From Geothrix edaphica (lineage in GTDB: Bacteria; Acidobacteriota; Holophagae; Holophagales; Holophagaceae): DNA of 64,000 nucleotides. The notes under the pieces were generated by a model. That model ran no database searches. It saw only the letters and a program-made list of their open reading frames with translations, and was not told where the DNA came from. The position numbers and the translations under genes were made by a program. The stretch lies in assembly GCF_030268045.1 (NCBI RefSeq), contig NZ_BSDC01000002.1, positions 558,001 to 622,000 of the forward strand. Reading direction: 5' to 3'. Positions 10,750 through 37,782 of this stretch are shown here, piece after piece. Each line of letters starts with the position of its first letter. Positions within the stretch are counted from its first letter, which is position 1.

Positions 10750-11733
10750 TCATCCCTTGAGGAGCCGGTCCTCCGCCAGCCGCAGCATATGCTCCGTGGC
10801 GAGGACGCCGTCCTGGTGGTTCATGCGCTGGAAGTGGCCGCGCAGGTGGCGCAGGGTGCGGGGGATGGCGGGGGCGAAGTGGGCCTTGTGGCGGTGGACG
10901 ATCTGGTGGCCGAAGGTGCCCAGGGCCTTGAGGTTGCGCTGGAGGGCGCTGAGGTTCAGCTCCTCCAGCAGGGCCTCGTGGTTCCAGCCCAGCTCGTGCT
11001 GGAGGGGGCCCACCAGGGCGTGCCCCGCCTCCCGGGACCAGTCCCAGTAGCCGTCGTAGAGGATGCTGGCCAGGTCGTAGGTGGCGGCGCCCCGGCGGGC
11101 ATCCTGGAAGTCGATGACCACCAGCCGGTCGCCGTGGACCATGAGGTTGCGCACGTGGAAGTCGCGGTGGGCGAAGAAGTGCGCCCGGGTCTCCAGGCTG
11201 GCGTGGGCCTCCTCCATCATGCGGTCCAGCCAGCGGGGCGGATCCTTCTGGAGGAAGTCGCGGAAGAAGTTCGCGCGGCAGTAGTCCCACTCGAACTGGA
11301 ACTTGGCCTGGTCGAAGGCCCGCCCCATGAAGAAGGCGTGGGCCGGGGCGCCCAGGGTGAGCGGCCCGGCCAGCGTGGCCAGCAGCCAGCCGGCCTGCCC
11401 GGCCCAGAAGACCTCCTCTTCGGGATGCTCCACCAGGCGGCGCTCCAGGGAGGTATCGCCCAGGTCCTCCACCAGCAGGCAGCGGTCCCCCTCATCGCGC
11501 TGGAGGATGGTGGGCACTCGCAGCACGGGGTCCAGGTAGGCCTGGAGGGCCTGGAACTCGAAGTAGCTCTCGTCGGGCTTCTCCGGCGTGTCCAGGGGAT
11601 GGAGCACCACCAGGGCCGTGCCCAGCTGGGGATGGGCCACGCGGGTGTACTGCCGCGCCCCCGCGTCCCCCGCCAGGGGATGCGGATCCGACAGGTGCCA
11701 GCGCTCCAGGGCGCGGAGAAGGCGGGGATCCAT
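10750..11733 (-). CDS. amgK: AmgK-like amino-sugar (MurNAc/GlcNAc) anomeric kinase
   Basis: Member of the aminoglycoside phosphotransferase fold. The catalytic loop is HRDFHVRNLMV and the metal site is VIDFQDARRG, both close to AmgK, which phosphorylates MurNAc/GlcNAc at C1 in the MurU-dependent wall-recycling bypass. The adjacent nucleotidyltransferase (gap 4 nt) is the expected partner MurU. I chose the ATG at 11733 (327 aa); an upstream in-frame start would overlap the previous gene. The exact substrate is inferred from family and neighbour. Confidence 0.8.
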   Translation of the reverse strand: MDPRLLRALERWHLSDPHPLAGDAGARQYTRVAHPQLGTALVVLHPLDTPEKPDESYFEFQALQAYLDPVLRVPTILQRDEGDRCLLVEDLGDTSLERRLVEHPEEEVFWAGQAGWLLATLAGPLTLGAPAHAFFMGRAFDQAKFQFEWDYCRANFFRDFLQKDPPRWLDRMMEEAHASLETRAHFFAHRDFHVRNLMVHGDRLVVIDFQDARRGAATYDLASILYDGYWDWSREAGHALVGPLQHELGWNHEALLEELNLSALQRNLKALGTFGHQIVHRHKAHFAPAIPRTLRHLRGHFQRMNHQDGVLATEHMLRLAEDRLLKG

Positions 11734-11737
11734 GGCT

Positions 11738-12595
11738 TCAGGGTAATCCCAGCCGCACCTGGTTGCCGCCCTCCTCGAACCAGAGGGCGTCGGCATCGGT
11801 GATGGCGGGGGGTGGCGCGGCGCCGGGACCCAGGATGCAGCGGGTGAGGCGGCCTGTGGGGTTGGCGGCGGGCTTCGCGGCGGGATGCACGTAGCTGCCG
11901 GACAGGCGGCCCTCCTGGTCTGGCGCCACCTCCGCCGCGGCGCTGATGAGGGCGTCGGCGGTGCCCACCTCGCGCCAGGGGAAGGGTTCCGTCACCACGC
12001 CCAGGTGGCCCGCGGGGAGGGCGGCCAGCCGGGGCCGCAGGTCGTTCACCTCGCTGGGGCCCTCGGGCAGCAGGGCCAGGGCCTCCGGCGACCAGGCGGC
12101 AGCGCCGGTGAAGTGGTAGGGCCCCCAGGGGCCGGTCACGCCCTTGGGCAGCACGCGGCCCTCGTGATCCATCCACACGGGGTTCCAGCCCCCGCCGGGA
12201 TGGGGCACCAGCAGCCAGCTGAGGGTGGCCCCGGCCTCGCGGTGGCGGGCCCGCAGGAGGTCGAAGGGCACCTCGTCCGCCCAGATGTCGGCGTTCCACA
12301 CCAGCAGCTCGGCCCCGACCCTGCCCCGGGCGTGCAGCAGCCCGCCGGCGCTGCCCAGCAGCTCTGGCTCTCCGAAGACCTCCAGGCCGCCGGCCACCGG
12401 CCGCAGGCGCTCCGGCAGCAGGTGGGCGTTGCAGCCGAGGCGGTGGGCTCCGGCGGCGCGCAGGGCATCGGCGCCCCACTGTAGCAGGGGCCTCTCTCGC
12501 AGGGTCCAGGCGGGCTTGGGCAGGCAGGCGCTGAGGGGTCCCATGCGCGTGCCCAGGCCCGCCGCCAGGAGGAAGCCCTCCAGGGGTTCAGGCAT
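11738..12595 (-). CDS. murU: MurU-like sugar-1-phosphate nucleotidyltransferase
   Basis: NTP-transferase of 285 aa with the signature LAAGLGTRMGPLS and PKPAW, and a metal-binding Asp in VWNADIW. With AmgK it would make UDP-MurNAc from recycled MurNAc-1-P, bypassing the fosfomycin-sensitive MurA step. Its start overlaps the stop of the upstream CorC-like gene by 8 nt (ATGCCTGA, the same junction as ftsY-ribD). The C-terminal third is poorly conserved Pro/Gly-rich sequence. The alternative is a generic mannose/glucose-1-P nucleotidyltransferase. Confidence 0.78.
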   Translation of the reverse strand: MPEPLEGFLLAAGLGTRMGPLSACLPKPAWTLRERPLLQWGADALRAAGAHRLGCNAHLLPERLRPVAGGLEVFGEPELLGSAGGLLHARGRVGAELLVWNADIWADEVPFDLLRARHREAGATLSWLLVPHPGGGWNPVWMDHEGRVLPKGVTGPWGPYHFTGAAAWSPEALALLPEGPSEVNDLRPRLAALPAGHLGVVTEPFPWREVGTADALISAAAEVAPDQEGRLSGSYVHPAAKPAANPTGRLTRCILGPGAAPPPAITDADALWFEEGGNQVRLGLP

Positions 12596-16938: not shown

Positions 16939-17016
16939 GGCGGCTGTAGCTCAGTTGGTTAGAGTACTGGATTGTGATTCCAGGTGTCGCCGGTTCGAGT
17001 CCGGTCAGCCGCCCCA
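16939..17016 (+). tRNA. tRNA-His (anticodon GTG)
   Basis: Full cloverleaf. There is an extra 5' G-1 (16939) opposite C73, typical of tRNA-His, a 7-bp acceptor stem GCGGCTG/CAGCCGC, anticodon loop ATTGTGATT with GTG, T-arm GCCGGTTCGAGTCCGGT, and encoded CCA (17014-17016). A GATAAT/TAATCT-like -10 lies at 16919-16926. The CCA end is part of the stem of the immediately following palindrome. Confidence 0.97.
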
Positions 17017-17056
17017 GATTGAAAAGGCCCCCGCACGGGGGCCTTTTCAATCTGGG
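17013..17056. terminator. 21-bp perfect palindrome overlapping the tRNA-His 3' end
   Basis: Arms 17013-17033 and 17036-17056 are perfect reverse complements with a 2-nt centre. The left arm begins with the tRNA's own C73-CCA, so folding of the read-through transcript would sequester the tRNA 3' end. It resembles a bidirectional terminator with A-rich and T-rich outer stem segments. Confidence 0.7.
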
Positions 17057-17062
17057 ACACCT

Positions 17063-17347
17063 GGACTCGAACCGGCGACAGTGGGCTTGCGGAGGCCCTC
17101 CGGGGGAGGGCCGGGAGCAAGACCGGCAGCCCGCGCAGCGGGCTGCGGCCGGTTCGAGTCCGGTCCGGGTGGGTCGAGATCTTCTTCTTACCCAAGAACC
17201 GGCGACAGTCGCGACTGCCGGGTGACGCAGCCGGGTTCGGGGAACCCTGCCGAGTCGGGTCCCGGCGAAGAGCGAGCCCTTGCGGAGGCCCTCCGGGGGA
17301 GGGCCGGGAGCAAGACCGGCAGCCCGCGCAGCGGGCTGCCGGCCGGT
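17063..17347. repeat. tRNA-His tail: inverted and direct T-arm copies plus a 61-bp direct repeat
   Basis: This otherwise gene-free stretch starts with an 18-bp exact inverted copy of the tRNA-His T-arm (17063-17080; tRNA 16985-17002). It contains an identical 61-bp direct repeat at 17086-17146 and 17279-17339. Each copy is followed by a sense T-arm-like sequence (GGCCGGTTCGAGTCCGG at 17147 on, GGCCGGTTCGGG at 17341 on). Another antisense fragment (GAACCGGCGACAGTCGC) is near 17206. No coding potential is evident. Compare the tails of tRNA-Arg and tRNA-Pro. Confidence 0.8.
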
Positions 17348-17368
17348 TCGGGCGGTTCGGACACCAAG

Positions 17369-30489: not shown

Positions 30490-30566
30490 GCGCCTATAGC
30501 TCAGGTGGATAGAGCAACGGCCTTCTAAGCCGTAGGTCGCTGGTTCGAGTCCAGCTAGGCGCACCA
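30490..30566 (+). tRNA. tRNA-Arg (anticodon TCT)
   Basis: Full cloverleaf: acceptor GCGCCTA/TAGGCGC with A73 and encoded CCA, anticodon stem-loop ACGGC-CTTCTAA-GCCGT (TCT), T-arm GCTGGTTCGAGTCCAGC. A TAGACT -10-like hexamer ends 9 nt before the gene (30475-30480); tRNA-Pro has the same hexamer at a similar distance. The 3' 28 nt (30537-30564) form the left arm of a hairpin with the following repeat. Confidence 0.97.
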
Positions 30567-30567
30567 A

Positions 30568-30890
30568 GTGCGCCTAGCTGGACTCGGACCAGCGAGAAAC
30601 ACCTGCGGCCCGGTAGGCCATAGGCAGAGGGCCGACTTGATGTCGGCCCGGCGCCGTCGTGGCCGGGGCCAGCAGGTGGCGGTTCGAGCCCAGCGTGAAG
30701 TGGGTCGGCGCCCACCCGTGCGCCTAGCTGGACTCGGACCAGCGAGAAACACCTGCGGCCCGGTAGGCCATGGGCAGAGGGCCGACTTGATGTCGGCCCG
30801 GCGCCGTCATGGCCGGGGCCAGCAGGTGGCGGTTCGAGCCCAGCGTGAAGTGGGTCGGCGCCCACCCGTGCGCCAGCTGGACCCGCGACC
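30568..30890. repeat. Tandem 150-bp tRNA-tail repeats after tRNA-Arg
   Basis: Two nearly identical 150-bp units (30568-30717 and 30718-30867, about two differences) and a partial third (from 30868). Each unit starts with a 28-bp inverted copy of the tRNA-Arg 3' end (T-arm plus acceptor strand; one G/T mismatch). It continues with a hairpin GGGCCGAC-TTGAT-GTCGGCCC (30629-30649, 30779-30799) and then carries a sense T-arm-like GCGGTTCGAGCCCAGC (30679 on, 30829 on). There is no credible gene inside. Confidence 0.9.
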
Positions 30891-37339: not shown

Positions 37340-37441
37340 GTCTGACCTCGAGCGGTTGAGAGGGGAAGGTTCGGCATCCAGGCAGATGACCGTCAGGCCC
37401 ATTATCGAACCGGCTCAATGTAGGTATTGTGTTAATTCTTG

Positions 37442-37705
37442 TTAAGTTTGGGTTCGCCCTGGGCGGGATTCGAACGGTGCCAGGCTTCGCCAGCCGCTGG
37501 TCTTGCTCTGGCGCTCCTACTAAAGGTGGCTTCAACACTCAGCCGCCTGCCGTTCTCCGTATTTCGCGCCGACTCACCAGGGCGCGATTCGAACTGCGTC
37601 TGGCTTTGCCAGCCGCCGGCCTTTCTACGGCAGGACATCAAGTCCTGCCTTCGAAAGTCCACTCGCGAGTTCGAATCTCGCCGACAGGCGGTTGTTGGAA
37701 CCCAT
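37442..37705. repeat. tRNA-Pro tail: inverted T-arm copy, conserved hairpin and two T-arm-like repeats
   Basis: Reading in the tRNA (minus) direction, there is a 21-bp exact inverted copy of the tRNA-Pro T-arm (37663-37683; tRNA 37715-37735). Next comes a hairpin GGCAGGAC-TTGAT-GTCCTGCC (37629-37649). Two related units of about 43 bp follow (37577-37619 and 37458-37500), each with GGCTGGC-AAGCC and a sense T-arm-like GTTCGAATC. The spacing of the two units is about 119 bp. No coding sequence is supported. Confidence 0.85.
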
Positions 37706-37782
37706 TGGTCGGAGCGGCGAGATTCGAACTCGCGACCCTCTGCTCCCAAAGCAGATGCGCTACCAGGCTGCGCCACGCTCCG
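37706..37782 (-). tRNA. tRNA-Pro (anticodon TGG)
   Basis: Full cloverleaf on the minus strand: acceptor CGGAGCG/CGCTCCG, A73 and encoded CCA, anticodon stem-loop CTGCT-TTGGGAG-CAG (TGG), T-arm GCGAGTTCGAATCTCGC. A TAGACT -10-like hexamer (37791-37796 on the complement) lies 8 nt upstream, just past the stop of the preceding minus-strand gene. Confidence 0.97.

Follow-up and report, generated by a model that had tools for sequence, protein, structure and literature searches.

The tandem repeats behind tRNA-Arg(UCU) in the window (the whole 64,000-nt stretch of the Geothrix edaphica genome analysed here) belong to a larger group of repeats at tRNA 3′ ends, which have a characteristic layout, a conserved structure and a changing copy number, share cores between different tRNAs, and carry arms that follow the tRNA gene in front of them. 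The explanation that we favour, and to which we give an even chance, is that these are gene-less, structured, non-autonomous repeats specific to the Holophagaceae, with arms that are copied anew from the host tRNA.

At tRNA-Arg(UCU), the tRNA stretch 30537–30564 recurs in inverted orientation after a gap of 3 nt (28 nt, 96% identity, a single G/T mismatch), the 150-bp unit starting there is repeated in tandem (99% identity), and each unit contains a sense T-arm-like sequence, GGTTCGAGCCCAGC, as the preliminary description of this DNA had reported (Table 1). The inverted copy, T′, covers the acceptor strand, the T-arm and 3 nt of the variable loop, and reads CTCGGAC where a faithful copy would have CTCGAAC. 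Each unit runs from T′ through a folded core to the sense copy (T*) and a tail hairpin; the tail motif GTGGGTCGGCGCC is found again 3′ of T* at other tRNAs. When both strands are folded, the whole unit is one long imperfect palindrome, and model R2 matches unit 1 with 135 bits over 30575–30697. The preliminary description mentions neither this palindrome nor the elements at two other tRNAs of the window, nor the spread of the group across the family. By our estimate about 1e-9 such inverted repeats would be expected by chance per 64 kb, and the 411-nt region folds 11 s.d. below shuffled sequence. The neighbouring genes are ordinary: upstream lies one for a DUF4337 protein, and downstream a convergent one for hemerythrin. 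Across genomes this site holds 0 to 4 copies, and their class also varies.

Table 1. Host tRNAs and repeat features in the window (window coordinates). T′, inverted copy of the tRNA 3′ end; T*, short sense copy of the T-arm; R1, class B covariance model.
Feature	Position	Strand	Basis
tRNA-His(GUG), host of class B array	16940..17016	+	tRNA call
Terminator-like palindrome behind tRNA-His	17017-17052		tRNA flank inspection
Class B element behind tRNA-His, T′ CTGGACTCGAACCGGCGAC	17058..17167	+	R1 72.9 bits, E 4.9e-13
Second class B copy behind tRNA-His, decayed	17253..17356	+	R1, E 8.8e-5
tRNA-Arg(UCU), host, CCA encoded, 3′ end copied	30490..30566	+	ARAGORN; Rfam RF00005 73.4 bits
T′ of unit 1, inverted tRNA 3′ end	30568..30595	+	Inverted-repeat search, 96%
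Unit 1, class A element and tail	30568..30717	+	Direct repeat; model R2
Unit 1 apical hairpin GGGCCGAC-TTGAT-GTCGGCCC	30629..30649	+	Fold; stem covaries in family
T* of unit 1, short sense T-arm copy	30681..30694	+	Sequence, folds; pairs with T′ of unit 1
Unit 1 tail hairpin GTGGGTCGGCGCCCAC	30700..30715	+	Folds, tRNA-flank comparison
Unit 2, second tandem copy	30718..30867	+	Direct repeat; model R2 135 bits
T* of unit 2	30831..30844	+	Sequence
Third T′, decayed, ends array	30868..30889	+	Sequence
Class B element behind tRNA-Pro(UGG)	37579..37683	-	R1 105.4 bits, E 1.6e-20
tRNA-Pro(UGG), host	37706-37782	-	

The general order is tRNA, usually a terminator, T′, a conserved folded core and T*, often in tandem, and three classes are distinguished here under names of our own. 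Class A (the Arg-UCU array of the window, Val-GAC and Met) reads GAGAA-CA-GGCGGCCCGGTAG ... GGGGCCAGC. In class B, T′ is followed by GAGTGGG, a stem P2, a variable apical hairpin P3 and a second hairpin (GGCGCAGCC), and then by T* and the tail GTGGGTCGGCGCC; class C differs from class B by one additional hairpin after T′. R1 matches the class A units of the window weakly (E 0.006–0.009); classes A and B are likely of common descent, although this is not proven. Among the 116 class B copies that were aligned, standard pairs fill 96.0% of the paired cells (81.9% after shuffling), 24 of 28 pairs have changed on both sides yet still pair, and the covariation score is 0.412 against 0.05–0.08 in slid controls, in an alignment fitted to the covariance model, which favours the model structure; a structure-free MAFFT alignment of 18 sequences gives 15 pairs with changes on both sides. 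Solo T′ arms that have no core are common. The element of tRNA-Thr(CGU) in this genome (G000:C1:1007176-1007331, L046) carries a long hairpin-rich insertion in its apical stem, and the flanks of tRNA-Ser (CGA, GCT, TGA) and tRNA-Glu(CTC) hold truncated, core-less inverted T-arms with a similar TCGAARTCAC end, perhaps a second element class or remnants.

Two other tRNAs of the window host class B elements, and a second, decayed copy behind tRNA-Pro(UGG) (37430–37530, minus strand) ends in CGTTCGAATCCCGCCC. Elsewhere in the same genome, a DNA search located a second array at tRNA-Val(GAC), with that tRNA's own inverted T-arm. The preliminary description had proposed looking for such self-specific copies behind other tRNAs, and 14 of the 45 tRNAs of this genome have one: their downstream flanks score 13.5–25.5 for an inverted copy of their own 3′ end, lying 2–76 nt behind the tRNA, compared with an average of 7.7 and a 99th percentile of 13.1 when tRNAs are set against the flanks of other tRNAs. 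Away from tRNAs, no full-length copy was found in this genome, save an array behind a displaced tRNA 3′ end.

An ordinary dispersed repeat, with units at many non-tRNA sites, had been considered at the outset and is rejected: a same-strand tRNA lies upstream of 98 of the 116 class B copies (median 48 nt), and 17 more, at eight loci, adjoin a tRNA 3′ fragment or a contig edge. These eight are found at contig starts (L021, L093, L100) or behind a tRNA 3′ half or end (L107, L117, L131, L114, L146); the eighteenth copy, at a ninth locus (L135), has no upstream tRNA, tRNA fragment or contig start. Orientation is always tRNA-sense. L131 is the displaced array of this genome, whose tRNA-Pro(GGG), adjoined by a phage integrase, is about 38 kb away. 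An island of about 38 kb occupies this tRNA (G000:C1:372300-411500; L159, L160), with the native array at its far end; we infer that the entering island displaced the array, which would therefore be older than the island. In another genome, one contig (G009:C40; L161 1000-1700) reads as a long, perfect palindrome around a central terminator-like hairpin and carries the element in each of its arms; the assembly has probably folded back on itself here.

The class B covariance model detects elements in 44 of 47 genomes of the genus (1–17 copies each) and in four further Holophagaceae genera, where some matches are weak or single, and none in the two other families of the class. At the level of the phylum, 29 of 396 genomes carry class B, every one of them Holophagaceae, and the model has no match in the roughly 350 phylum genomes beyond that family. 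Class A is present in 42 of 77 family genomes and 7 of 11 genera. Two genomes that are 93–96% complete (G016 and G065) have neither class, which indicates that the element is dispensable. About a dozen kinds of tRNA act as hosts within the family, with their own arms at each. Matches to the core pattern in Geothrix fermentans, limicola, rubra, oryzisoli, paludis, campi and fuzhouensis are confirmed by the class B model and lie behind tRNAs; those in Myxococcales, Verrucomicrobia, Stenotrophomonas and others have no covariance-model match. A search for phage, plasmid or viral carriers of the core yielded none, two viral core-pattern matches being dismissed as chance, with no model match.

The arms of the element track the host. 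Where orthologous tRNAs differ in their tails, 40 of 46 minority cells in T′ have the letter of the tRNA alongside, a count that ignores shared ancestry among genomes; three of the remaining cells keep the majority letter and three have another. T′ follows its tRNA also where a terminator precedes it, and since RNA pairing is unlikely there, the sequences suggest that the arms are copied at the DNA level. The variable stem P3 contains 4 GU and 4 CA among about 730 cells, and wobble as rare as a CA mismatch is more in line with copying of DNA than with gradual compensation in RNA. Of 99 cores, 46 have their nearest relative at a different tRNA and 53 at the same tRNA in another genome, an approximate split that includes four loci with unassigned tRNA; given the latter number, movement of the element may be rare.

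Under the favoured explanation, the element would spread non-autonomously from tRNA to tRNA. After its arrival, copying by fold-back (template-switch) replication would keep the arms matched to the local tRNA, and unequal recombination between T-arm copies would build the tandem arrays. Template switching has been described as a mutation process in RNA hairpins, which it both creates and maintains (PMC8794818). No recombinase or transposase tracking the element was found (Y1 occurs in 2 of 9 genomes searched, and attC sites are unmatched). Repeats next to tRNAs are usually interpreted as scars left by integration. In this bacterial family, a structured element occurs almost exclusively at tRNA 3′ ends, and its arms track the tRNA even across a terminator. 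If our explanation is correct, the ends of this element are not its own but are rewritten from whichever tRNA gene precedes it, which bears on how frequently hairpins are rewritten by fold-back in bacteria.

A role of the RNA for the host is the main rival and is most credible at Arg-UCU. It would make the repeats a beneficial trailer RNA, a maturation switch or processing signal in which T′ pairs with either the tRNA 3′ half or T*, and we consider it rather unlikely. The constant tRNA-sense orientation and the strong covariation agree with it, as do the RNA signals at Arg-UCU described below. However, a terminator-like hairpin stands between tRNA and T′ at 57 of 61 loci of other tRNAs, so that, for most copies, tRNA and repeat probably do not share a transcript, and the part in tRNA processing or maturation that had been suggested for the trailer finds no support as a general rule. 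Moreover, presence, class and number differ among close relatives, and some genomes have no element at all.

tRNA-Arg(UCU), with a terminator before T′ in 0 of 25 loci, is the sole common host without one intervening. For this tRNA with one unit, the predicted folding energy is −147.2 kcal/mol when free and −121.7 kcal/mol with the cloverleaf enforced; for a 107-nt transcript in which T* is not yet made, it is −72.9 versus −38.8 kcal/mol. The long hairpin proposed earlier as a competitor of the cloverleaf is hence the predicted winner by about 25–34 kcal/mol at equilibrium, the state to which these energies are confined. Once T* is present, the predicted difference falls from about 34 to 25 kcal/mol; during co-transcriptional folding, the tRNA would have the advantage first. 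Mismatches in T′ bear on the same hairpin. Overall, 68 keep wobble on the tRNA-sense strand, against 11 mirror transitions and 24 transversions, but the split is 36, 2 and 1 at Arg-UCU (39 in total) and 32, 9 and 23 behind terminators (64 in total), counts that are not independent because closely related genomes share changes. This difference is why T′/tRNA pairing in RNA looks constrained at Arg-UCU. The AGA codon is absent from 1471 codons in five genes of the window, which also favours a trailer RNA. Both the conserved core motifs and the wobble bias at Arg-UCU (36 versus 2) could reflect a host RNA function, and they count against the favoured reading.

The two ideas can be combined, in a mobile element with host-templated termini that at the rare-codon tRNA-Arg(UCU) also serves as a cis anti-tRNA switch with T* as a decoy, a possibility that we likewise consider rather unlikely. 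If it is true, T′ pairs there with either the tRNA 3′ half or the decoy T*. The favoured explanation itself includes the milder view that, with no terminator seen before T′ at this site, the trailer there probably pairs with the 3′ half of the tRNA as a hairpin, which lasts until T′ is taken over by T*. The locus thereby bears on a wider question, namely whether the maturation of a tRNA can be influenced by a trailer that is antisense to it.

Remnants of site-specific integration, i.e., minimal attP-like units that tyrosine recombinases from islands or phages would have stacked at an attB in the T-loop, are an improbable origin. Integration into tRNA T-loops is established (PMC1762012), the hosts are island sites, as at the tRNA-Pro(GGG) array with its phage integrase, there are five displaced loci in all, and some tandem units include the whole tRNA 3′ end. 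Direct copies of tRNA 3′ ends flank the Val-GAC and some Arg-UCU arrays; T′ is inverted. Against this origin, ordinary integration yields direct rather than inverted copies. The core, in addition, has no genes and no match in phages or plasmids, and the displaced arrays lie outside the island, which argues that they are older than the islands. Least probable of all is a mutational by-product with neither mobility nor function, in which tRNA–terminator palindromes are extended by fold-back replication: the tRNA 3′ end, terminator and T′ frequently form one continuous dyad, core-less solo T′ is common and the apical stem is highly variable yet almost free of wobble, but the conserved core motifs common to different tRNAs and the restriction to one family are left unexplained.

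Several known systems resemble these repeats in part. REP and REPIN sequences with RAYT transposases (PMC3116915, PMC2817692) are likewise short gene-less hairpins with several copies per genome; the present elements differ in being confined to tRNA 3′ flanks and in having host-matched arms. A REP/RAYT system was rejected, as general intergenic dispersal is lacking and the Y1 transposase (PF01797) is missing from most genomes searched (seven of nine: G000 and six of eight others). In one genome, an IS200-like Y1 transposase (G067:C1:2191948-2192586) and a tRNA-Met element are separated by about 180 bp.

Integron attC sites are also imperfect palindromes of about 100 nt with conserved structure and variable sequence, but the present elements have no R″/R′ boxes, and their P1 is CTCGRAC/GTTCGAG, not RYYYAAC/GTTRRRY. 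Descent from attC sites of a resident integron was set aside: the integrons are real, but the attC-like repeats of five integrase regions have no R1 match below E 0.1. True integron integrases exceed the TIGR02249 cut-off in 29 of 47 Geothrix genomes (loci include G000:C3:557586-558482 (L180), L179, L181 and L182), and three genomes have many 125-nt repeats, probably attC sites, arrayed beside the integrase. A tmRNA near an integron integrase (L183 11263-11790) has a 26-nt exact direct repeat (11630-11655 and 11767-11792).

A known RNA family was considered and rejected, Rfam giving none for the repeat; Y RNA-like (YrlA) reaches 19.1 bits against a gathering threshold of 69, through the T-arm hairpin only. 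The enterobacterial tRNA 3′ trailer (3′ETS) RNAs are trailer fragments that sponge sRNAs, and here too the sequence behind a tRNA could act as RNA, but it is a repeated structured element, usually behind a terminator. A further parallel, already drawn in the preliminary description, is E. coli rtT (Rfam RtT), tandem repeats of 150–180 bp behind tyrT that each include part of the tRNA 3′ end. The likeness stands insofar as the present repeats also lie directly behind a tRNA and contain pieces of its 3′ end, but it does not extend to the sequence model, for which no match was obtained at gathering or up to E=5. In contrast with rtT, the main tRNA copy is here inverted and up to 28 nt long, it comes with a core that is conserved and covaries, and the hosts comprise about a dozen kinds of tRNA, each with its own arms. 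The literature searched gave no account of such elements; tRNA-linked tandem repeats (rtT) and palindromic repeats are already known, and what is new is the tRNA-matched arms.
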